Source of the DNA: a virus
DNA: 29,688 nucleotides
IMG/VR virus record: IMGVR_UViG_3300035698_001093
Coordinates: 1-29,688 of that record
Reading direction: 5' to 3' (one strand)
Part shown: positions 3,172 through 18,102 of the stretch, in pieces
How positions within the stretch are numbered: position 1 is the stretch's first letter
How the letters are laid out: each line of letters starts with the position of its first letter
Notes under the pieces: generated by a model
Seen by the model: only the letters and a program-made list of their open reading frames with translations
Databases searched by the model: none
What the model was told of the DNA's origin: nothing
Translations under genes and position numbers: made by a program

Positions 3172-3956
3172 AAAGAGATCCGAGCTTACATATCAAATAC
3201 AGTGATTTTAAAAGGATCATTGGTATTATATTGGGAATAGAAGATGATGCCCAACTGGATGGGTTAACCTCTGAGGTATTCCTACGATCTGCCCCTCACT
3301 CTATAAATACTAGAACCGTAGCGGTGACTAACGACCGGATGGAAAAGAAGGCTAAGAATTTGGTAAAAGCTTCAAGGTATGATGCCGACCTACTTGCGAA
3401 ATTAATTTATGCAAAAAGAAAACACCTGAAACACCGTGGTATTTCTCTGATCTTACCAGCGGGTAAGGACTGGGAGATGGTTAAACAAGTAGCTGCTTCT
3501 GCCTTGAACTTTACTAATGAATTTAACCTAACACGTAGGTATGGGTTTATAAAATACATAGAGATAGGGTTATCTAAGATGCAGAAGTTTGCACTGAATA
3601 AATATATCAACATGTATGAGGGTATATGTGTTACTTATCAGGCTATGCTAGACATAGAACAGGACGATGACTCTACCATGACTCAGGAGATGTATAAAGT
3701 ATATGCCCAGAGAATTATTGAGAGTACGGGTATGTTTGATAGACTGGATGAGTTACCAGATAAGTATGTATGGTTTGTAAAGGCTAGGCAACAGGCTGAG
3801 AAGTTAAACATATCCCCAAAGATATACATTCAAGCTCAATTTGCTGGCCTAGACTTTTCAGGTGGTATCCCCCACCCTACACAGCTAGTAGGGATCAAGG
3901 CTAACGAACGAGTGGTTAGGTTTTGTTATGAACAGAATATTAAAATCAAAAAATAA
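3168..3956 (+). CDS. Unrecognised protein in the primosome operon
   Basis: 262 aa, mixed alpha/beta, no motif I recognise. The first 100 residues are rich in Lys/Arg, and a block of aromatic helices follows (about 120-215). A proline-containing C-terminal segment (GGIPHPTQL, about 236-244) ends before a basic tail. It overlaps the primase stop by 4 nt and is overlapped by 1 nt by the next gene, so it is translated within the helicase-primase-UvsW unit. A replication accessory role such as helicase loading is possible from context only. Confidence 0.7.
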   Translation: MKRDPSLHIKYSDFKRIIGIILGIEDDAQLDGLTSEVFLRSAPHSINTRTVAVTNDRMEKKAKNLVKASRYDADLLAKLIYAKRKHLKHRGISLILPAGKDWEMVKQVAASALNFTNEFNLTRRYGFIKYIEIGLSKMQKFALNKYINMYEGICVTYQAMLDIEQDDDSTMTQEMYKVYAQRIIESTGMFDRLDELPDKYVWFVKARQQAEKLNISPKIYIQAQFAGLDFSGGIPHPTQLVGIKANERVVRFCYEQNIKIKK

Positions 3957-4165
3957 TGGATATCCATCCAATAGAATTAGCGGCTAATAATTTACCGGAT
4001 AGTATATGGAATACAGCCAAATTATACCCCGAAGGTAGGAACGTACTATTAATATGCTTAAGCAGAGCTTCTAAGAGAACCATGCTTGAAGTAGTTCAAT
4101 GGTTGAAGGACAATAACAAAGAAATATTTGAAATAGATTGCCATAAATATCATGATAAAGATTGA
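3956..4165 (+). CDS. Small unrecognised protein upstream of UvsW
   Basis: 69 aa, starting in a TAATG overlap with the previous stop and overlapping the UvsW-like gene by 14 nt. It has a hydrophobic-helical centre (NVLLICLSRAS) and an acidic/His-rich end (DCHKYHDKD). No domain is recognisable. The overlaps at both ends support a real, translationally coupled gene. Confidence 0.65.
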   Translation: MDIHPIELAANNLPDSIWNTAKLYPEGRNVLLICLSRASKRTMLEVVQWLKDNNKEIFEIDCHKYHDKD

Positions 4166-5594
4166 ATTAAATAACAATAAGTTTAAGCTGACAGGAAACT
4201 TACGTATCCTTAATAAGATACATGAAGATATGAAAGTCAAGCATCCTAACCAATGGTATCTAAGACCCTACATGGAACCAGGTTGGGATGGTAAGATAAA
4301 GTTCTTAACCGATGCTGGGTATGCTAAAACTGGACTCCTCCCAATGGTTACTAGTTTAATAGAAAAATACGAAGAAGAATATACCATTGTAGATAGTCGT
4401 ATACCACTAGAAACCAGTGCAATACCACTTAAAATAGGGGAATTTACTGCTCGACCATACCAATTAGAAGCAGTAGAGAGTATACTTGGGAACACAATTG
4501 ATGACTTACCATTTCCAAGAGGGGTAATAGGGGCAGCAACGAACGCAGGTAAGACCATTATAGCCGCACTCATTCATAAATCAATACCCGATGCCATGAG
4601 TTTGATATTGGTTAACAACACTGACCTTTACCAACAGTTCCTTGATGACATGCCCTCTATGTTCGGGGATGACTGGGGATACATGCAGGGTAAGAATGTT
4701 AAGTGGGCACCTATCATGGTATGCATGACCCCCACCCTTAGGAATAGGCTCACTGAGTTCTCCTCTAAGCTGGCTCGGTATACCGTGGTATTATTCGATG
4801 AGTGCCACTTGGTCACCAGTAAAACAAATAAGAAGGTGGTCACTGCCTTGTATAACACCGTTGTAAGGGTGGGGCTATCTGGTACTGCCTTCGGACATAA
4901 GGATCCAACAAAGAATATGAATGTCAGGGAATTCTTTGGGGATGAGGTTTATAACATAAAGAATATAGAACTAATGGAACTGGGTTACTCAACACCCATT
5001 GTTATAAAAATAGTTAAGGGGAACACTACCATAAAAATCAAGGGGGATTATGCAGAAGAATACAAACAGGCTATTACGAATAATCGAGAGAGAGAAAGAG
5101 TTTCTATGCAACGTACAGAATATTATCTTAAGCGAGGCTGCTACCCTATCCTCATCGTCGGTAAATACCATGAGCACGTTGAACGCCTCTACAAAGTCTA
5201 CCAAGCAAGATTCGGTGATCGTTATCGGGTGTCCTTCATCCATCACAAGGTCAAGGACAGAAAAGAAATCCTTGATAAGTTTAAGCGAGGAGAAATAGAT
5301 ATCCTAATATCATCCTTGATCATTAAGCTTGGTCAGAACATGCCACTGATTAGATACATGCAGAATGCAGCAGCTGGTGACTCATACATTAATGCCCTCC
5401 AATTAATAGGTAGGGCAGTTAGAACCCACGAGTCTATGAAGAAAGTATACTACTCCGATCACTGGGATACTGGTTTCTATCTGGAAAAGCACTCTAGGCA
5501 TAGAATAGATTATTACCTAGGACAAGGGTTTAAAGTTATATTCCTAGATAAGGATATAAAAGAAAAATATTATAGACGTAGGTCAAGACTATGA
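4152..5594 (+). CDS. uvsW: UvsW-like superfamily 2 helicase
   Basis: 480 aa, about the length of T4 UvsW (roughly 500 aa). An N-terminal substrate-recognition region (1-95, including WYLRPYMEPGWDGKIKF) precedes the Q-like motif RPYQLEAV (101-108). Motif I is ATNAGKT (129-135), motif II is DECH (216-219, a DExH variant), motif III is SGTA (243-246), and motif VI is in LIGRAVRTHE near the C-terminus. Family members remodel branched DNA, unwinding R-loops and driving fork regression and branch migration, which helps the switch from origin-primed to recombination-dependent replication. The UvsX-like, SSB and gp46/47-like genes downstream fit that role. Confidence 0.85.
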   Translation: MIKIELNNNKFKLTGNLRILNKIHEDMKVKHPNQWYLRPYMEPGWDGKIKFLTDAGYAKTGLLPMVTSLIEKYEEEYTIVDSRIPLETSAIPLKIGEFTARPYQLEAVESILGNTIDDLPFPRGVIGAATNAGKTIIAALIHKSIPDAMSLILVNNTDLYQQFLDDMPSMFGDDWGYMQGKNVKWAPIMVCMTPTLRNRLTEFSSKLARYTVVLFDECHLVTSKTNKKVVTALYNTVVRVGLSGTAFGHKDPTKNMNVREFFGDEVYNIKNIELMELGYSTPIVIKIVKGNTTIKIKGDYAEEYKQAITNNRERERVSMQRTEYYLKRGCYPILIVGKYHEHVERLYKVYQARFGDRYRVSFIHHKVKDRKEILDKFKRGEIDILISSLIIKLGQNMPLIRYMQNAAAGDSYINALQLIGRAVRTHESMKKVYYSDHWDTGFYLEKHSRHRIDYYLGQGFKVIFLDKDIKEKYYRRRSRL

Positions 5595-6625: not shown

Positions 6626-7432
6626 ATGGATATTAGGGATTTTAAAGAGGGAGTACAGTACCCAGGGGCTACGGCATTTGCTGAGATCTTTGCCTTACAG
6701 AAGGTACTATTAAACCAGTACATCGGAATAGAAAGTCTACCAGAGTACCCACTGGATATCAACACCAGAGCGGCTCAGACTTTAGTAAAGGATTTTTCTG
6801 GGAGAATTATTGAAGAGCTTGGAGAAGGCTTCGAATCCTATCTTATTATGATGGATATGTTTCATCATGGTAAAGAAGAAGAAGAGATGGTACCACACCT
6901 CCAAAATTTTAACGAGGAGATATCAGATGCCATCCACTTCTGGCTAGAGCTAATGATATATTCTGGGTACGAAGTTAATTCCCTGAGTTTCTGGTTGGAT
7001 CTTATGCCCGAATCACAATATCTTAAGGGCCCTGATATGCTAGAACTCTACATGAAACTCGGAGAGCAATTAGTACACCAGGATGTGGCTAACAAAAAGA
7101 TTCCTTGCCGATGGGTAATCAAGGACCACATGCTCGATGATGAATTCCTAAGGGGTGGTAGGCAACTAGGTATGAACAGACAAGATATTATGAAACAATA
7201 TCTATGGGATATCACCTATTATCTTCAGATCGCAAGGAATACCCTTAAGAATAAACCTTGGAAGCAGACCGAGATGATGACAGACTTCAACCAATATGAA
7301 GAACAAATGATGAAGGCAACAGTTGCCCTCTTTAAATTCTTTGCCTTTACTGGGTTTACTAAGGAATCCATCTTCGTAATTTATTTCAAGAAAAACAAGG
7401 TTAACCAGTTCCGCATAAGTAGTAAGTACTGA
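6626..7432 (+). CDS. All-alpha NTP pyrophosphatase, dCTPase/dUTPase type
   Basis: 268 aa, helical. The metal-binding ExxE...ExxD layout of the dimeric dUTPase / T4 gp56 / MazG superfamily is visible: RIIEELGE (60-67) supplies the first acidic pair, and NEEISDAIHFW (96-106) supplies E97/E98 and D101. The C-terminal FKKNKVNQFR (near 253-262) matches the family's late K..VN..R nucleotide-binding motif. Enzymes of this family hydrolyse dUTP and/or dCTP to the monophosphate plus PPi. In T4 the homologue gp56 supplies dCMP for hydroxymethylation and clears dCTP. The synthase at 8554 makes that role attractive, but dUTP versus dCTP preference cannot be read from sequence. Confidence 0.75.
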   Translation: MDIRDFKEGVQYPGATAFAEIFALQKVLLNQYIGIESLPEYPLDINTRAAQTLVKDFSGRIIEELGEGFESYLIMMDMFHHGKEEEEMVPHLQNFNEEISDAIHFWLELMIYSGYEVNSLSFWLDLMPESQYLKGPDMLELYMKLGEQLVHQDVANKKIPCRWVIKDHMLDDEFLRGGRQLGMNRQDIMKQYLWDITYYLQIARNTLKNKPWKQTEMMTDFNQYEEQMMKATVALFKFFAFTGFTKESIFVIYFKKNKVNQFRISSKY

Positions 7433-7450
7433 TATCAAGAGACAAAGCTT

Positions 7451-8206
7451 ATGATAAGAAGTAAACATGCCACCAGCCAAGAAGCTTGGGAATGGGTCAA
7501 TGAGTTCCTTGCTACTAAGGAGGAAGTAGTAAAGAGAAAGGGTGGTACAAGGAGTGGGTCACAGGTAATATCCTATGACCACTTCATGGAATTCAATAAA
7601 CTCTGGGTTGATCCTGAGTTTGACTTCGGTGATATCTTTGGGTACAAGAAACAGAAGTGGTCCATCCTTAAATCCAATTATGTAGATATGAATATAGTGG
7701 ATTTGGTTAAGAGCGATATTTTAACTAGGGAGGCTAAGAAAACACCCAACTACAATCACACCTTCAAATTCTCTAATCACCATGGTTCAGGACATGGGTG
7801 CTTAATTTCTTTAACCTTCCAGAGAAGGCACTCGCATGATAACCCAGTGTTACTTATTAACATCAGATCATCAGAGGTAACCAAGAGGTTACTCATGGAC
7901 TTCGTATTAGTACAAAGGATTACCGAGTACATATATGGTGATGATGTTAGTGCCTCAGCAAAATTATTCTGCGGCAATATGTATATCTCTGCTGAGAATT
8001 TTGTTATGTACCATGGGCACAAGGACCTCCATACATTTATTGACCCTGAACATAGTGTTATGGAGACTAGGATTATGGATATCTACGAAAAGTTTAGTAA
8101 ACCAGAGGCTCTCGAAACTATTAAATACAAGGTACATCTCAGGTCAGCAAAGAGGTTGCAGAAGTTACCTAACCCACCGCTTAAGGCCAAAGACTTATTA
8201 CTTTGA
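7451..8206 (+). CDS. Divergent thymidylate-synthase-fold protein
   Basis: 251 aa. The second half can be laid on the ThyA/dCMP-hydroxymethylase core: a candidate catalytic Cys at C117 (HGCLISLTFQ), then RSSEV at 139-143 in place of the QRSxD phosphate loop, then D150 exactly eight residues after E142. That is the position occupied by Asn in dUMP enzymes and Asp in dCMP enzymes. G175-N-M-Y178 falls where GxxH occurs. A His-rich tract HGSGHG precedes the Cys. The N-terminal 100 residues are unlike ThyA. It is a distant paralogue of the 8554 protein; activity, or a role as a partner subunit, is inferred only. The assignment rests on motif spacing. Confidence 0.5.
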   Translation: MIRSKHATSQEAWEWVNEFLATKEEVVKRKGGTRSGSQVISYDHFMEFNKLWVDPEFDFGDIFGYKKQKWSILKSNYVDMNIVDLVKSDILTREAKKTPNYNHTFKFSNHHGSGHGCLISLTFQRRHSHDNPVLLINIRSSEVTKRLLMDFVLVQRITEYIYGDDVSASAKLFCGNMYISAENFVMYHGHKDLHTFIDPEHSVMETRIMDIYEKFSKPEALETIKYKVHLRSAKRLQKLPNPPLKAKDLLL

Positions 8207-8214
8207 ACCCGGAG

Positions 8215-8240
8215 TACTATTAATAATAAATATATAAATA
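8215..8240 (+). promoter_or_regulatory. Candidate phage promoter before groES-like gene
   Basis: TACTAT at 8215-8220 is followed by an AT-only tract ending in TATAAATA (8233-8240), just before the ATG at 8243. The same TACTAT plus ATA-rich arrangement precedes 6213, 11457, 18161, 22706 and 24655. No TATATTTG or TTG pair is present. It is suggestive rather than proven. Confidence 0.3.
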
Positions 8241-8242
8241 CT

Positions 8243-8554
8243 ATGAAGAAACACAAAGGATTGCCAGCAGAACAACGGGTAGTGGTTTTGCCAATGGACC
8301 AAAAGGATTCTAAATCGGCCGGGGGTATAATCTTACCCGCAGGAATGGAAGAGGATGTACCCGGATTGGGGACCGTAGTTTTAAGCGGTACGGGTAGTAA
8401 GGATAACCCAATGATGTACAACACGGGCGATATAATAGTATACAGTCAGTATGCGGGTTTGGATGTTAAACTTAATCTTGATGAATATGGAGAGCATACC
8501 TACAAGGTAATGAACCAGCTCGACATCATGATGAAGCTAATACCCGTAGGATAA
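8243..8554 (+). CDS. groES: GroES-like co-chaperonin
   Basis: 103 aa, the usual length for GroES and T4 gp31. Family landmarks in order: an N-terminal PAEQRVVVLP strand (residues 8-17), GGIILP (27-32) preceding the mobile-loop region, GLGTVVLSGTG (41-51), NTGDIIVYSQYAG (59-71) and a C-terminal strand containing LDIMMKLIP. It should cap the host GroEL, with which phage co-chaperonins fold large capsid or other proteins. No GroEL-like gene is in the window. Its place between two synthase-fold genes is unusual; it overlaps the next start by 1 nt. Confidence 0.85.
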   Translation: MKKHKGLPAEQRVVVLPMDQKDSKSAGGIILPAGMEEDVPGLGTVVLSGTGSKDNPMMYNTGDIIVYSQYAGLDVKLNLDEYGEHTYKVMNQLDIMMKLIPVG

Positions 8555-9270
8555 TGAGAGTCTATGCGAATGCCTACGAGCTTATGTCAGAGATCTTCAG
8601 GGAAGTTTTTGAGATGGGACACATCGTTCACCCTAAATCAATGCAGAACAAGGATGTATCTGATGATGATAATTACCTCACAAAGGAAATCACGAACTAC
8701 TCTTACTGCTTAACCAGCCTTAACAAACTGAGCTATCTATTCTTTGCTGATGCCAGGTCAAAGTACTGGGCAGAGGAGGAATTTATGGAGAGAATCAGCC
8801 CACTATATGTTAATCCGGGTACTGCTTGGAAGATCAGAGGAGAACTTTGGAGGGAATTTCTTAACAATGGTGAATTTGATTATGATTACAACACCAGGAT
8901 GAAAGATTCACTTGCCTCTGCCATTAAGGAACTACGTGGGAACCCAGACTCACGTCAGGCTATTATAAATGTCTGGGATGCTCAGATAGACCCCAACAAT
9001 CTGGGTGGGGTAGCACGTGTACCGTGCTCCATGTATTATCAGGTTCTGGTAAGGGACAACAAGGTTAATATCATATATAACCAAAGGTCAGCGGATGTAG
9101 TAACCCACTTCGGTAATGATGTATTCCTAGCATTTAAACTTATGGAATATGTTTCACGGGAGATCAACATGAAACCCGGTTACCTATTCCACAACATCGG
9201 TTCACTACATGCCTACAAAAAGGATTGGCCAAAACTGAAAACTTGTATTGATGATATCCAGAAGATATAA
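8554..9270 (+). CDS. Thymidylate-synthase family, probable dCMP hydroxymethylase
   Basis: 238 aa. Catalytic Cys C158 (RVPCSMYYQVLVR), phosphate-binding QRSAD (177-181) and H219/Y221 (GSLHAY) fix the family. Eight residues after D181 stands D189 (FGND). At this position ThyA has Asn (E. coli N177), while T4 dCMP hydroxymethylase gp42 has Asp (D179). From memory, gp42 also reads RSND...FRND and GSLHVY, close to this protein. I therefore infer dCMP as substrate, with hydroxymethylation or methylation at C5, instead of dUMP. It lacks the long ThyA N-terminus and is shorter than gp42 (about 246 aa). It overlaps groES by 1 nt and the polymerase gene by 20 nt. Confidence 0.72.
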   Translation: MRVYANAYELMSEIFREVFEMGHIVHPKSMQNKDVSDDDNYLTKEITNYSYCLTSLNKLSYLFFADARSKYWAEEEFMERISPLYVNPGTAWKIRGELWREFLNNGEFDYDYNTRMKDSLASAIKELRGNPDSRQAIINVWDAQIDPNNLGGVARVPCSMYYQVLVRDNKVNIIYNQRSADVVTHFGNDVFLAFKLMEYVSREINMKPGYLFHNIGSLHAYKKDWPKLKTCIDDIQKI

Positions 9271-11428
9271 ATACAAACTCGTAGAGAACTGGGAGGAGCT
9301 ACACCAGTTGGTTGCTTATTGCAAACAGACTGGCTATGCTTCTTCCGACTACGAAACTTGGGGTACCAATGCTATGTACCCCGGTAGTTACCCGACATTG
9401 CTCGGTGTATCATTTCAACCGGGTAGTGCATGGATTATACCACTTGCTCATAAGGATTCCTGTTTCCTTAATAATAATGAATGGGTGGAGGTTCTAAAAT
9501 ATTTTGGGCGAGAGGTCATCCAGAATGATGCGATCGTAAAGATAGGACAGAACATTCAATATGAAATTAATTGGTGGCGTAAATACGGCATCGTAATGGC
9601 AGGCAGGGTCTTTGATACTATGCTTGCCAAGTATTTGTTGGATGAAGAAAGACCCCATGGCCTAAAAGAAATGGTAGATAGGTTTATCCCAGACTATGCA
9701 GGGTATAATTTAGTTGGAGCACCGGGGCCTAAAGCCCCCCAAGAAAGGATCATTGAGTTCTGGTCTAATGTACCCTTAGATGAGTTGGCTGAGTACTGTG
9801 CATTAGACTCTGACCTGACTTTTAGGCTATGGGTATTCTTTGAGAGAAGATTAATAGACAACGGGTTCTACCCATTCTTTAGGAACATGATGATGATGGC
9901 ATCCAGAGTCCTTTCAGCTGCGAGCTATAGGGGTTTGGACACGGACCGAGCATACCTTAGGAATTTAAAGGCCACCTATGCTGAGAAGATAAAAACCTGC
10001 GAAGTTAAATTAAGGAACCTACCTATCATCCTAGAATATGAGGCTGGTAAAATTATTGCCACTAAGAAAAAGATGGTTGCTGATTTAAAAGAAGAGATTG
10101 AACAAATAGATTTAGAGGGTGGTAGTGAAAGGTTGGTCAAGAGTAGAGAGGCTAAGATATCAAGATACTTAGCTGGGGACTTTACAACAAAGAAAGAACT
10201 AGAACTCATTGCCCCCACTAACTTCAATAGTACTAAGCAAATGATAGACCTACTCTTCGATAGTACTGATGGGTTTATGTTTGATATAATTAGATATACA
10301 GAGGATAAGAAGACCAAACAGATATCTGATAGGCCATCAACCGATGAGTCAGTACTCCTAGAATTACAGGAACTTGATGAAACAGAATTTATTAAAATAC
10401 TCCTAGAACTAAGGGGGCTAACCAAGATGAACTCCACCTATGTGGTTGGTATGTGGGAAAAACTAAACTCTAATGATAAAATACATGGAGGTTTTTTGTT
10501 ACATGGGACCGTTACGGGAAGGCTTTCGAGCCGCAACCCCAACCTTCAGAACATACCAAGGGATACCACCTCTAGTGATATCAAAAAGATGTTCATTGCT
10601 CCACCCGGAAAATTAATGATGCAGCTCGATTACTCTCAGGCCGAGCTAAGAGTATTGGCAGCAGAAGCAAAGGAGCACACCATGATCTCCTGGTTTAAAA
10701 CCGGCAAGGACGTCCACCTTGCCTCTGCTTGCCTTAAGTATGATGAGGACTACGATATGATTAAAAAGATCTATGATGATAAAGGGAACAGTGAGTTCGA
10801 GAAGTGGAAGATACGAAGAAAGCAGGCAAAAACTATTAATTTCGGTATTGTTTACGGACAAACCTCAAAGAAGTTATCAATTACACTTTCTACTGAGGAT
10901 CACAAGGTCTCAATTGTTGAAGCACAGGAATTTCTTGATAACTTTAATGAGCAATTCCCAGCTATTGCCAAACATATTAAGCGACAACAGAGGTATGTTA
11001 CCAAGCACGGGTATGTTAAGAACCTGTTTGGTAGAAAACGAAGATTGCCTAACGTCGACTCGGACAATTGGGGAAAGAAAGCTGAAGCCCTCAGACAGGC
11101 AGTTAATGCCCCAATACAAGGAGCTGCATCAGACTTCACATTATTCAGTTCTATACTCATTCGGGAACATATCATTGGTGGTACTTTACCTAGATCACTT
11201 GAGCAAGTCGGAACTGTTCATGACTCCCTCATATTTTATATGGATCCAGCAGATATACATGATACAATTCCTAAGCTATATGATATATGCAGAAGCCCAG
11301 AAACTAAGCTATGGTTTAACTTCGAAGTAAAGGATGTTGAAATGAAGGTGGATTTTGAAATGGGAAAAAGCTGGGGAGGGCTAAAGGACTACGATCCACA
11401 AGTAAATTATACAGAATGGGTCACTTAA
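9251..11428 (+). CDS. polA: Family A DNA polymerase with 3'-5' exonuclease
   Basis: 725 aa from the ATG at 9251; the frame also has a TTG one codon earlier. The DEDDy exonuclease domain has D33/E35 (SSDYETWG), GQNIQYEIN (about 97-105) and YCALDSDLTFRLW. The polymerase domain has GRLSSRNPNLQNIPR, motif A with D460 (LDYSQAELR), motif B (RKQAKTINFGIVYG) and motif C with D658 (VHDS; Ser replaces the usual Glu of HDE, as in some phage and organelle enzymes). There is no 5' nuclease domain; that activity is encoded separately at 13829. This is the replicative polymerase candidate. A charged helical insert (about residues 245-310) separates the exonuclease and polymerase parts. Confidence 0.93.
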   Translation: MISRRYKYKLVENWEELHQLVAYCKQTGYASSDYETWGTNAMYPGSYPTLLGVSFQPGSAWIIPLAHKDSCFLNNNEWVEVLKYFGREVIQNDAIVKIGQNIQYEINWWRKYGIVMAGRVFDTMLAKYLLDEERPHGLKEMVDRFIPDYAGYNLVGAPGPKAPQERIIEFWSNVPLDELAEYCALDSDLTFRLWVFFERRLIDNGFYPFFRNMMMMASRVLSAASYRGLDTDRAYLRNLKATYAEKIKTCEVKLRNLPIILEYEAGKIIATKKKMVADLKEEIEQIDLEGGSERLVKSREAKISRYLAGDFTTKKELELIAPTNFNSTKQMIDLLFDSTDGFMFDIIRYTEDKKTKQISDRPSTDESVLLELQELDETEFIKILLELRGLTKMNSTYVVGMWEKLNSNDKIHGGFLLHGTVTGRLSSRNPNLQNIPRDTTSSDIKKMFIAPPGKLMMQLDYSQAELRVLAAEAKEHTMISWFKTGKDVHLASACLKYDEDYDMIKKIYDDKGNSEFEKWKIRRKQAKTINFGIVYGQTSKKLSITLSTEDHKVSIVEAQEFLDNFNEQFPAIAKHIKRQQRYVTKHGYVKNLFGRKRRLPNVDSDNWGKKAEALRQAVNAPIQGAASDFTLFSSILIREHIIGGTLPRSLEQVGTVHDSLIFYMDPADIHDTIPKLYDICRSPETKLWFNFEVKDVEMKVDFEMGKSWGGLKDYDPQVNYTEWVT

Positions 11429-13839: not shown

Positions 13840-14731
13840 GAAATTAGTAATATTCGACGGTAACCACTTAGCCTATCGGGCTCTGTACAAGTTTTCAAAT
13901 TTGAAAACCCTTGATGGAGTTAAGACTGGGGTTATATATGGCATGCCCTACGTAGCTGAGAGTTTAATACGCAGGTTAGACCCGAACAAGGTAGTAGTTA
14001 CATTCGATGGAGGTAGGGACCAGTTTAGAATGGGTCTCTTACCTTCTTACAAACAAAGGGACCAGAAGTTAGGCTTTGACAAGGATGATTTCTACAGGCA
14101 GAAGGATATTGGTAGAGATACATTCATGGCTTTAGGGTTATCAATAGTATGGCAGAAATATATGGAGGCCGATGATCTCATAGCTATGGTGGCCAGGAGA
14201 TATGCCATTAAGGGCTGGGACGTAATTATTGTATCGGGTGATAAAGATTTCAACCAGCTGGCCCAAGCTCCTGATGATACCAATGGTGAGATTTCTATAT
14301 ATAATACCACTAAGGGTAAGATATATGGGTATTCTAATATGCACAAGGAAGTAGGCTACCATGCATATCAATGTGTAGATTATCTATCACTGATGGGAGA
14401 TAAGTCTGACCATATACCAGGATACCCGGGCATGGGTCCAAAAAGAACCTCTCAATTACTTGAAAAGTATGGGTCAGTTAAAGAGTTCCTTATATCGGGG
14501 GATAAGTTTGGGAAAATTGACAATGAAAAATTAGCCGAGCTTATGATACTGAATAAGAAAATGATAGACCTAAAATATTTCTACCGTAAATTTCTGATGC
14601 ATAAATCGATCCCCTACTTGGATCCCAATGCAAAATATGATGCTATTAAGCTTAAAGGACTATGCGGGCAATATGAGATGAACTCATTCTTGAAACCACA
14701 ATTTATAAAAACATTTAAAAACTTACGATGA
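13829..14731 (+). CDS. 5'-3' exonuclease / flap endonuclease (FEN/PIN type)
   Basis: 300 aa. Family acidic residues are visible in order: D10 (IFDGNHLAYRA), D60 (VTFDGG), the EADD cluster (near 111-114, MEADDLIAM), SGDKDF (near 130-135) and GDKSDHIPG (near 190-198), followed by a helix-hairpin-helix segment PGMGPKRTSQLL. It has the role of the Pol I N-terminal nuclease, T5 D15 or T4 RNase H: removal of RNA primers and 5' flaps. It complements the family A polymerase, which lacks this domain. Overlaps both neighbours by a few nt. Confidence 0.9.
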   Translation: MRNRKLVIFDGNHLAYRALYKFSNLKTLDGVKTGVIYGMPYVAESLIRRLDPNKVVVTFDGGRDQFRMGLLPSYKQRDQKLGFDKDDFYRQKDIGRDTFMALGLSIVWQKYMEADDLIAMVARRYAIKGWDVIIVSGDKDFNQLAQAPDDTNGEISIYNTTKGKIYGYSNMHKEVGYHAYQCVDYLSLMGDKSDHIPGYPGMGPKRTSQLLEKYGSVKEFLISGDKFGKIDNEKLAELMILNKKMIDLKYFYRKFLMHKSIPYLDPNAKYDAIKLKGLCGQYEMNSFLKPQFIKTFKNLR

Positions 14732-15363
14732 GCGACGGAATAACAGATGCCCATAGAGGCTATCACGTACCACCCAAGATTAAAGACATGAAGATAATGA
14801 TTTGCGGAGCCAGCGGTACTGGTAAAACTACCCTGGCTAATCATATCTCAGAGCTACATGATTTAACTTTATTCTCAGCGGGGGCTAAAATAACATGGCG
14901 TAAATACGGTTTTAAGAACCATGCTCAAGCCATCAAAGAATCACTACTAAATCCAGCATTGGGGTTCAACTACCAATGGGATATACTACGTAGTAGGATG
15001 AAGGAAGCAGCTTTACACCCTACATACATAACAGACAGAAGTTATATTGATAACCTCACATACATCATGCTTCAAAATGGATCCCAATTATGTGAGGATG
15101 ATATATTGAATTTCATCGAATTAATCAAGGAGGGCTTAGAATGGGTAGATTTACTTATATTCCTAAGGTTTAATGATGAGACAGTTTTAGAGGACGATCA
15201 CCGTAGGATCCAAAACAGATATTATCAGGGTATGGTAGATAATACCATGAGTTGGGTAATCCATTCTGTCTTTCCGAAATTAAAGGATAAGGTATTAGAA
15301 ATTGATGCTTGGGACTTCGAAACACGTGTTAAAAATATAAATGGATGGGTAAACAACTTATAG
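14728..15363 (+). CDS. P-loop nucleotide/nucleoside kinase
   Basis: 211 aa. The P-loop is GASGTGKT (27-34) after the strand MKIMIC. TDRSYIDNLTY (about 92-102) corresponds to the DRS/ERS motif of deoxynucleoside and nucleotide kinases. A lid-like stretch DDHRRIQNRYY (about 152-162) supplies arginines. The first 20 residues are an extension; an internal Met at 21 also fits as a start, but the ATGA overlap with the exonuclease stop supports 14728. A role in phosphorylating dNMPs, perhaps a modified dCMP as T4 gp1 does, is inferred from context. Nucleoside specificity cannot be read. Confidence 0.65.
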   Translation: MSDGITDAHRGYHVPPKIKDMKIMICGASGTGKTTLANHISELHDLTLFSAGAKITWRKYGFKNHAQAIKESLLNPALGFNYQWDILRSRMKEAALHPTYITDRSYIDNLTYIMLQNGSQLCEDDILNFIELIKEGLEWVDLLIFLRFNDETVLEDDHRRIQNRYYQGMVDNTMSWVIHSVFPKLKDKVLEIDAWDFETRVKNINGWVNNL

Positions 15364-16295
15364 CACTATGTGCATCAGATATACACTTTCATGATTGGAA
15401 ACAATTCAATGATGACGATGTAAGAACATTAACAACCACGGGTATATTAAGGGATCTCTTCTATCGGTCACACGAGGAGGCAGTACCCATCCTAATGCCC
15501 GGGGATTTATTCCACACACCAAAGGGTTTATCAACTAAAACCCTTTTGATGTTTACCGAGTTTATGAAAAACGTTAGGTACCAGTTTTATCGGGCTAAAA
15601 TGGTCGGTATAACGGGCAACCATGATGGTAATATAAACAGTTCTTTGTATAGGGCCATGTCTTATGCATTTCCTGAACAGATAATATGTATTGATGATAA
15701 CCAATATGAACTCGGAGATATCCAGGTCATTGGGTTAGCCTATGCAAGGAGAAACATTGATATAGTAGCCAAAATTAAAACCGCAAGCCATACTAAAGGT
15801 AAGAAAATCCTCATGCTACATACAGAATTATATGGGGCTCCTGATCCGTCCGGGTATGAGCCAAATCCACAAAATTTTTCTAGGGAATCCCTCGCGCTAT
15901 TTAAGGACTTTGACTTAGTTCTAGCAGGTCATATCCATAAGCATACCCAGGTATCGGACAACGTATATATGGTGGGAGCACCTAATCAACAACGTAAATC
16001 CGATGCGGGAACCGAAATGGGCTATTTAGAGGTATATGATGATTTCTCTGTAGAATTCATACCCCTCAAAACTCCCACATTCAGGTATTTTAAAGAAGGC
16101 GAAGAACATGAAGATACCGATGATTATTGGACCGAAATCCCAACACCGAAAAAGATTAAGAAGCAATCCGAGGCGGAATTTAGGCCTACAATGGAAAAGG
16201 GGGAAATGGCCAAAAGGTATGCCAAGGAAACAGGGATTAAAAACAAGAGAAAGATAAATGCATTGATTAACATATTAAGCGAAACAGATGATTGA
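15345..16295 (+). CDS. sbcD: SbcD/Mre11/gp47-like nuclease subunit
   Basis: 316 aa. Metallophosphoesterase motifs are complete: D12xH14 (SDIHFHD), GDLFH (53-57), GNHDG (91-95), H159 (MLHTEL) and GHIHKH (195-200). These ligate two metals in Mre11/SbcD/gp47 nucleases. The C-terminal 80 residues are charged and probably bind the coiled-coil partner. The gene overlaps the SbcC-like gene by 8 nt, which supports a two-subunit complex. It should resect double-strand ends to make the 3' tails used by the UvsX-like protein, and may degrade host DNA. Confidence 0.92.
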   Translation: MGKQLIALCASDIHFHDWKQFNDDDVRTLTTTGILRDLFYRSHEEAVPILMPGDLFHTPKGLSTKTLLMFTEFMKNVRYQFYRAKMVGITGNHDGNINSSLYRAMSYAFPEQIICIDDNQYELGDIQVIGLAYARRNIDIVAKIKTASHTKGKKILMLHTELYGAPDPSGYEPNPQNFSRESLALFKDFDLVLAGHIHKHTQVSDNVYMVGAPNQQRKSDAGTEMGYLEVYDDFSVEFIPLKTPTFRYFKEGEEHEDTDDYWTEIPTPKKIKKQSEAEFRPTMEKGEMAKRYAKETGIKNKRKINALINILSETDD

Positions 16296-18102
16296 GTTTG
16301 GGAAAATGACAGTCGAGGGCTATGGCCCTGTACAGGAAGAAACCTTCTATTGGGATCGGCCGGGTATGAATATCATTCAAGCTGCTAACGGTAGTGGTAA
16401 GACAACCTTTATAAATGCACTGGTATGGGTATTATATGGAAAACCCCTATCGGGTGCTGTTGACCCTTGGGAGCATACTAGGACATCGAGCTATAAGGGT
16501 ACAAAGGTGGTCCAGGATTTTATGATTGATGACCTAGAGTTTACGGTCACTCGATACAAGAATTACCCCAAGTTCAAAAATGCCATGGTCCTAGAAATAG
16601 ATAGCGAAATAGATAAGGACCTCGATAAGAAAGAAACACAGCAATTATTAGAAACGCACTTAGGGTATACTTATGAATTATTTAAAAACTCCATCATATT
16701 TGGTCAGAAGCTCAAGAGGCTCATCGCTGAGACCGGCCCAAATAAGAAGAAGGTATTTGATGATGCTTTCGAAGTTACCTACATTTCTAAAGCAAAGGAC
16801 ATCGCCAATGAAAAGCTTAAAGAATTAAGAACGGAATTTAGTACTGATACCCATAACTGGGAAATGTTAGTTATGCAGGCAGAGGCTAAGGACAAGGAGA
16901 TACAGGCTCAGCAAAAACTACTCGATTCCTTCGAGGATACCAAGAAGACCCGGATAAAGGCTCAGAAGGAGCATATAAAAGCGGTAAAGGAAAAGATCAA
17001 GGTTATAGAAGACAATGAAGATATAGAGGCCAACATTTCAATCCAGGAATATGAACTGGAGATATTCGAGAAGGATTCATTATCTCACAGCGAAATAGTG
17101 AAGTTAGAAAAGTCAATAACTAAGTTAGAGATGCAAAGGGATATGGCCAAAAAGGACACTAAAGATACTAGGGCCAATAGCATAACTTGTCAAGCCCGAA
17201 TTGATAACATGGTTACTGCCTGCGATAAATGTGGAAAATCTTATACTGCGATAGAGCAGAAGACCGCTAAGAAGACCCTGAAGAAATACCTATCTGAACA
17301 TGAAGAAAATTATGCAAAAGCTTTAGTATATGTAAGTATACTAACTGGGCAAATACAAGAGCTTACTGCAGATATAGCTAGTGCAAATAAACTACTTGAG
17401 AGCATAGATATTATTAATGAAGAACTTAATAGACTAGAAGTCTTAAAAGGGAACCTGGTTAATGAGAGGGGTAGGTTAAGAACCTATAAGGAAAACATAC
17501 AAGCTATCCGGAAAGAAAAGCTTGATGATACGATCTTTAATCTAACAATCGAGCTATCGGGCATAACCGCTGACCAAAGGGAGAAGGCTAAGCTGGTAAG
17601 AAAATCCAGGCGGGATGTAGAAACGTATGAATGGTTAGTTAAAGACCCATTATCAAACTCGGGACTTAAGGCCTTCATCTTTAACATGATGTTGGACGAC
17701 ATAAATGAAAGATTGGAATATTACACCACATTCATAGGACTACAAGTGGGGTTTATGATAGATATGCAATCAGCTAACAGGGACTTACAGACATACGTAT
17801 TCAAGGATGATGAACCAGTACCTTACGATGACCTATCAGGTGGCCAACAACAATTGGTTGATATAGTTACTGCCTTCGCTATCCATGACATTGTATCTGA
17901 TAGTAAGGAATGTTCCTTACTCGTTCTAGATGAGGTATTTGAATCACTGGATAAGGACAATATAGAGATTATTACAGAACTCATACAGGATAAAGCTCAA
18001 ACCAAGTGCTTATACTTAGTTACCCACAGGGCAGAATTCAATCCAACCAATGCCAACATCATAAAGATCAGCTTCAATGGAACATCATCTACTATAGTCT
18101 AG
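16288..18102 (+). CDS. sbcC: SbcC/Rad50/gp46-like ATPase subunit
   Basis: 604 aa, similar in size to T4 gp46 (about 560) and much shorter than bacterial SbcC. Walker A is NGSGKTT (34-40). Long charged coiled coils (about 190-300 and 325-450) flank a zinc hook C312-D-K-C315. The ABC signature LSGGQQQLVD and Walker B/D-loop LLVLDEVFESLD lie in the last 100 residues. It pairs with the gp47-like nuclease just upstream for end resection. The short coiled coil is typical of phage versions. Confidence 0.92.
   Translation: MIEFGKMTVEGYGPVQEETFYWDRPGMNIIQAANGSGKTTFINALVWVLYGKPLSGAVDPWEHTRTSSYKGTKVVQDFMIDDLEFTVTRYKNYPKFKNAMVLEIDSEIDKDLDKKETQQLLETHLGYTYELFKNSIIFGQKLKRLIAETGPNKKKVFDDAFEVTYISKAKDIANEKLKELRTEFSTDTHNWEMLVMQAEAKDKEIQAQQKLLDSFEDTKKTRIKAQKEHIKAVKEKIKVIEDNEDIEANISIQEYELEIFEKDSLSHSEIVKLEKSITKLEMQRDMAKKDTKDTRANSITCQARIDNMVTACDKCGKSYTAIEQKTAKKTLKKYLSEHEENYAKALVYVSILTGQIQELTADIASANKLLESIDIINEELNRLEVLKGNLVNERGRLRTYKENIQAIRKEKLDDTIFNLTIELSGITADQREKAKLVRKSRRDVETYEWLVKDPLSNSGLKAFIFNMMLDDINERLEYYTTFIGLQVGFMIDMQSANRDLQTYVFKDDEPVPYDDLSGGQQQLVDIVTAFAIHDIVSDSKECSLLVLDEVFESLDKDNIEIITELIQDKAQTKCLYLVTHRAEFNPTNANIIKISFNGTSSTIV

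Follow-up and report, generated by a model that had tools for sequence, protein, structure and literature searches.

Three described enzymes with the thymidylate synthase (TS) fold are the closest counterparts of the protein studied here: AfhB, the dCMP hydroxylase of phage HY126 (PDB 9iqu, 9iqc); gp42, the dCMP hydroxymethylase of phage T4 (PDB 6l18, 1b5d, 6a9a); and the CMP hydroxymethylase MilA (PDB 5b6e, 5jnh). The reaction that defines the gp42 and MilA kind is methylene-tetrahydrofolate-dependent hydroxymethylation of a cytidylate. In the portions of PMC8670742 that we draw on, positions 177 and 147 best distinguish TS proteins encoded on contigs whose cytosine is modified from those on other contigs, position 177 is mostly Asp in the former, and TS co-occurs with pyrophosphohydrolase and deaminase domains. 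A passage of PMC13390438 cites a preprint on glycosylated 5-hydroxycytosine.

The window, meaning the whole stretch of DNA that we analyzed, is a linear virus record of 29,688 bases. As judged from structure predictions, it carries two TS-fold genes, one ordinary (the TS-like gene) and one far diverged, which we call the companion. A preliminary description had read the Cys, RSxD and Asn/Asp spacing of TS in the companion, a GroES gene next to it, and a TS-like gene beyond. The residues in question (C117, R139-S-S-E142-V143, G175-N-M-Y178, and D150, which lies eight positions past E142) all occur at the stated places, and both neighboring genes are real (Table 1). The genes lie in a replication block in which DnaB, primase, helicase, HNH and dUTPase_2-type pyrophosphohydrolase genes come before the companion, and GroES, the TS-like gene and PolA come after it, followed by SSB, UvsX, exonuclease, the thymidylate-kinase-like gene, and SbcCD.

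Table 1. Coordinates of the companion gene, its conserved codons, neighboring genes, and third TS-family genes at other loci
Feature	Position	Strand	Basis
dUTPase_2 / NTP pyrophosphohydrolase, directly upstream of companion	6626..7432	+	profile matches; conserved neighbor
Companion (P0001), TS-superfamily protein, 251 aa	7451..8206	+	ORF, AlphaFold, TS-fold matches
Codon of Lys69 (K 123/138, R 15/138)	7655..7657	+	138-row alignment
Codon of Tyr77, family-specific, invariant 138/138	7679..7681	+	138-row alignment
Codon of Cys117, equivalent of TS catalytic Cys, 138/138	7799..7801	+	alignment, profile-profile match
Codon of Arg139, equivalent of E. coli TS Arg166, 138/138	7865..7867	+	alignment, profile-profile match
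Codon of Asp150, dCMP-type Asp, equivalent of E. coli TS position 177, 138/138	7898..7900	+	alignment, profile-profile match
GroES gene, between companion and TS-like gene	8243..8554	+	Cpn10 E 4.5e-12
TS-like gene, predicted cytidylate-type hydroxymethylase	8554..9270	+	Pfam Thymidylat_synt E 5.3e-20; D189, S159, RSxD
DNA polymerase I-type (family A), downstream of pair	9248..11428	+	profile matches; neighborhood
Thymidylate / dNMP kinase-like gene, same replication block	14728..15363	+	phrog_761 E 1.5e-9
Third short TS-family protein, 181-212 aa	L051 33707-34255	-	directly after TS-like gene
Third short TS-family protein, further loci	L054 9726-10292, L055 2891-3523, L139 4822-5367, others		directly after TS-like gene

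Fold and sequence relationship of the companion to TS

The predicted structure of the companion has the TS fold. The AlphaFold2 model, made with 31 aligned sequences, had a mean pLDDT of 92.9 and a pTM of 0.91. In a Foldseek search of the PDB, AfhB came first (E 1.6e-6), followed by T4 dCMP hydroxymethylase (E 8.4e-6), MilA, and thymidylate synthases. Using VIA-align, the companion had a Z score of 14.4 against AfhB (rmsd 3.6 over 179 residues), 13.2 against MilA, and about 10 against TS. The preliminary description had allowed that the fold might prove to be a different one, and both programs instead place the companion with TS.

The similarity to each of the described enzymes is distant. AfhB shares the catalytic Cys and the Asp at position 177 with the companion, but has RSQN where the companion has RSxE, and at 14-17% identity the likeness is at the level of the fold. 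The AfhB-aligned part covers residues 1-192 of 251, leaving about 60 extra C-terminal residues in the companion, which is also without the conserved C-terminal His. T4 gp42 shares the Cys, the RSx-acid motif and the Asp at position 177, but is only 10-13% identical; in the companion, Glu replaces the Asp of RSxD, the Cys is followed by a hydrophobic residue, and GxxH is missing. MilA is 8% identical to the companion, and its real match in the window is the TS-like neighbor, which had a Z score of 23.2 against both AfhB and MilA, with an rmsd of 1.8 to MilA.

Sequence comparison of deep profiles also connected the companion to TS. The companion alone matched no Pfam family at E ≤ 0.1, Thymidylat_synt included, and among the PHROGs it matched phrog_34294 (function not annotated) with an E value of 2.9e-5. 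We built a 138-row companion alignment from the window protein and 137 sequences thinned from 154 distinct ones, excluding ORFs of <200 aa; the member set was grown with iterated profiles at E 1e-6 and may include a few drifted members. When compared to the profile of 170 TS-like proteins, this alignment gave an hhalign probability of 90.0 (P 1.6e-6), and 13 control gene families from the same loci gave probabilities of at most 0.5 (P ≥ 0.13). The alignment paired C117 of the companion with C158 of the TS-like protein, R139 with R178, E142 with D181, D150 with D189, and Y178 with H219. Only the 138-row profile reached this level: shallower companion profiles were weak against TS-like alignments (probabilities of 20.8 and 31.3), a profile of the PMBT14 branch alone (described below) gave no signal against them, and a profile of 12 companion relatives matched PDB sequences at chance level only. 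A match to TS thus exists at sufficient profile depth, and the central proposal of the preliminary description, that a TS-like gene has next to it another TS-fold protein carrying the dCMP-type Asp, is supported by both the predicted structure and the profile match.

Conserved residues of the companion and of the TS-like protein

C117, R139 and D150 were invariant in 38/38 close relatives of the companion and, together with Tyr77, in 138/138 divergent members, indicating that the TS-type spacing of these residues is beyond chance. C117 corresponds to the catalytic Cys146 of E. coli TS, and Arg139 to its phosphate-binding Arg166. In the rest of the motif that begins with Arg139, the Ser position (E. 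coli 167) is S in 57, T in 56 and A in 24 of the 138, and the acidic position (E142; E. coli 169) has Glu in 122 and Asp in 4; by sequence, RSxE of the companions is a conservative variant of RSxD of TS. The companion gene appears to be under purifying selection, with a median dN/dS of 0.12 from 9 of 28 pairs, the others being saturated in dS.

Other parts of the TS active site are not kept. Residues G175 and Y178 do align with the GxxH motif, as the preliminary description had it, but the wider family conserves neither: column 175 has 62 A, 15 P, 15 T, 14 S and 12 G among 138 proteins, and column 178 has 55 Y, 38 T and 21 F. More generally, the columns opposite the GxxHxY ribose site (207, 209), which are 175, 178 and 180, are not kept as G, H and Y. 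Arg134, which is invariant in the TS-like protein (the Arg126/127 site, supplied to the partner subunit in TS), had no companion Arg opposite it in the profile alignment; R93, a few residues before that site, is Arg in 89/138. Because the His of GxxH is lost and no Arg aligns with Arg134, nucleotide binding by the companion would probably differ from that by TS. Directly after Cys117, 138/138 companions have L, I, M or V, in contrast to S or T in 168/170 TS-like proteins.

The TS-like protein of the window has the cytosine-type residues, with D189 at position 177 and S159 at position 147, and RSxD is kept. These residues are typical of the whole set: 168/170 TS-like proteins have Asp at 177, 168/170 have Ser or Thr at 147, and the Cys (169/170), Arg178 (170/170) and His219 (170/170) are retained. 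Since the TS-like proteins have RSxD as in T4 gp42, and AfhB has RSQN, the predicted reaction is likelier to be hydroxymethylation than hydroxylation. ThyX is also encoded by the spring-water phages MW202455 and MW202777 and by contig G005, and those phages therefore do not need the TS-like gene to make dTMP.

Distribution of the family and linkage to the TS-like gene

Companions form a large family and are found in many unrelated phages. A first scan identified 7 companion loci and a profile scan identified 30; one locus (L011) was dropped as a copy of the window locus. In a collection of 84,980 bacterial and archaeal species, just one of 74 pattern matches, on a contig of a Dysosmobacter MAG, proved to be related. 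In annotated phages, the companion sequence found 3 records. Its structure matched AUM59766 of Pseudomonas phage PMBT14 (BFVD, E 2.8e-9), which led to a second branch with 17 phage records and 45 viral-contig loci; relatives of AUM59766 are found in Serratia, Yersinia and Brevundimonas phages. The two branches are homologous (hhalign probability 94.6, P 6.7e-8, 224 columns), both match phrog_34294, and we assign them to the same family. As in the window, the companion at PMBT14-type loci is directly before the TS-like gene and close to PolA. Unlike the window, these loci have a companion with about 15% identity to that described here, often add a dCMP deaminase gene, and in some cases add a third short TS-family gene. 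Two records label the product 'pyrimidine hmase synthase', which is a name only. We found no paper describing the companion in a search of the open-access literature, which is not proof that there is none. Based on these results, we conclude that an enzyme superfamily that is among the best studied has a widespread, so far unnamed branch, the companion family, whose genes are almost always located beside a cytosine-type synthase. Its carriers include cultivable phages (PMBT14, Serbin, Lebethron).

The linkage between the companion and the TS-like gene is nearly constant. Among 160 distinct companions, there was a TS-like gene within 4 kb downstream in 146 and upstream in 12; of the other two, one had too little DNA to judge, and for one (L040) no TS-like gene was found. 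The pair was thus present for 158/159 companions in the related phages that the preliminary description had proposed to search. The gap was ≤30 nt in 75 of the 146, and the reading frames often overlap or touch. Conversely, for 162 TS-like proteins the upstream DNA was long enough to judge, and in 21 of these no companion was found upstream. These counts are by distinct protein, the scanned loci including near-identical contigs.

Scans seeded with TS gave a similar picture, although of 368 and 372 loci they each covered the best 80, nearest to the companion-locus queries, and are biased accordingly. In the first, a companion was present at 59 of 79 tallied loci, with 5 cut upstream and 15 without (one further listed locus, L015, is outside this tally). 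In the second, it was present at 69/80, with 4 cut and 7 without. Two ORFs that matched both profiles (L028 6852-7631 and L096 4001-4777) were counted as TS-like. The 22 companion-less loci among these had no nearby ORF with the C...RSxE...D pattern. Some companion-less TS-like genes adjoin a gene for a cytosine-C5 DNA methylase or an IMPDH-like dehydrogenase (L130 4950-6068, L209 2824-3945, L123 2890-3954, L127 2841-3908).

The contig on which no TS-like gene was found, L040, is incomplete (61 kb). There was no TS match on it with either the family profile or Pfam PF00303, and no ThyX was found; a dCMP deaminase gene directly follows the companion. The family profile is the better test of the two, since PF00303 missed the TS-like gene of G006 and the family profile found it.

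Gene order is mostly preserved in relatives of the window, as pyrophosphohydrolase, companion, (GroES), TS-like gene and PolA. In PMBT14, Serbin, P744, Lebethron and Brevundimonas phage Polewnik, the companion and TS-like pair comes before PolA, and in most of these five, dCMP deaminase, kinase and pyrophosphohydrolase genes are annotated nearby. GroES is between the pair in the clade of the window, after PolA in the gut clade, and absent at other loci. The arrangement had been called unusual in the preliminary description; only the intervening GroES is a local feature, and the pair itself is conserved and widespread, with near-constant linkage in at least two phage lineages. According to a portion of PMC6509536, Serbin is placed near the E. 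coli phage 9g-like phages and is without their queuosine cluster, which would suit a different DNA modification in Serbin.

Some loci have unusually long PolA (1092 and 1421 aa) or UvsX (829 aa) proteins (L001 16866-20144, L009 14374-18639, L003 6671-9160), and on visual inspection the PolA insert of L001 resembles an intein that contains a homing endonuclease. Between the TS-like gene and PolA of L001 are two genes (15125-15880, 15873-16745) that, also on visual inspection, resemble an IspD-type nucleotidyltransferase and a LicD-type transferase. PolA of L031 is split into two ORFs with a gap (7610-11109), and its TS-like ORF is just 178 aa (6899-7435). The genome-search match of L050, the TS-like gene of the L032 contig, contains one in-frame TGA.

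The TS-like gene was apparently exchanged while the companion was retained. TS-like proteins are of two types, split by one long branch. The number of type changes is 1 on the TS-like tree, about 3 on that of the companion, and 4 on that of PolA; the trees were built quickly, have several open forks and long branches that meet, and leave out nine duplicate loci.

Possible functions of the companion

We consider it reasonably probable that the companion is a TS-superfamily enzyme that shares a nucleotide pathway with the predicted cytidylate-type hydroxymethylase next to it. Since it retains the key catalytic residues, it probably catalyzes a further step in the synthesis of a modified DNA base. 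Of the three roles proposed in the preliminary description (second pyrimidine-modifying enzyme, partner subunit, pseudo-enzyme), the first best fits the invariant Cys, Arg and Asp, the linkage, and the swaps of the TS-like type. A fixed heteromer would resist such swaps, and the swaps together with the invariant Cys therefore favor a second enzyme, linked to the TS-like one through a common metabolite. In the mechanism that we envision, Arg139 would grip the 5'-phosphate and Asp150 would read the cytosine ring, Cys117 would attack C6 of a (modified) deoxycytidylate and thereby activate C5, and the usual folate side of the pocket would be rebuilt around Lys69 and Tyr77. The companion would either tailor the product of the hydroxymethylase or make a second C5-substituted cytosine nucleotide; the dNMP kinase and then PolA would insert the modified nucleotide in phage DNA, protecting it from host nucleases. 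Two observations fit this reading less well. L040 ill suits an enzyme that needs the product of the TS-like gene, and a constant neighbor is also expected of a partner subunit.

That the companion is such a subunit, obligately associated with the TS-like hydroxymethylase in a heteromer, its own site binding a nucleotide for regulation or shared catalysis, seems to us possible but rather unlikely. The near-constant linkage and the short gaps are as expected for a heteromer, and TS is a dimer in which each subunit supplies Arg residues to the site of its partner. However, two very different types of TS-like protein pair with the same type of companion, the TS-like proteins keep a full residue set of their own, and no TS-like gene was found on L040 and no companion upstream of the 21 TS-like proteins described above. 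The switches and L040 in particular count against a fixed heteromer.

It is improbable that the companion is a pseudo-enzyme or a nucleotide-sensing regulator that has kept the pocket and lost the chemistry. The ribose-site His is not kept and the Asp of RSxD is replaced by Glu, as might be expected in such a protein, but pseudo-enzymes usually lose the nucleophile, and the invariance of C117, R139 and D150 in 138/138 members argues against a decayed pseudo-enzyme. We regard a flavin- or oxygen-dependent dCMP hydroxylase of the AfhB kind as quite improbable: AfhB was the top match with both Foldseek and VIA-align, but the likeness does not extend beyond the fold or to the RSQN motif, and relatives of the companion are in gut phages and a Dysosmobacter MAG contig, settings that we take to be likely anaerobic. 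An ordinary ThyA making dTMP would have the TS fold of the companion, but is hardly credible given Asp rather than Asn at position 177 in 138/138, the lack of a Pfam TS match, and the additional ThyX of MW202455, MW202777 and G005.

If the companion is a second enzyme in the pathway, one more specific and tentative scheme is that of a tandem line. The TS-like enzyme would make 5-hydroxymethyl-dCMP, the companion would re-form the exocyclic methylene bound to its Cys, and attack on it by some nucleophile that is not water would give a new modified cytosine, all at the mononucleotide stage, with a third short protein joining in some phages. The prediction is that phage DNA contains a modified cytosine that depends on the companion gene. 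If true, this would be a new means by which phages shield DNA from host defenses, and a source of new base-modifying enzymes.

Some loci have more than two TS-family genes. Gut phages have two companions in tandem. PMBT14, Lebethron, STP12 and others have a further short TS-family protein with the C...RSxE...D pattern after the TS-like gene (Table 1). Tested separately from the member set, these third proteins matched the companions with an hhalign probability of 97.8 (P 8e-13). A row of several TS-family genes would suggest a series of steps more readily than a single dimer.

In L037, a canonical-looking Asn-type TS gene (3668-4639) lies between two companions, making four TS-superfamily genes in a row. 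In PMBT14, the CDS annotated 'dCMP deaminase' (33286-34245) overlaps the third short TS-family protein.
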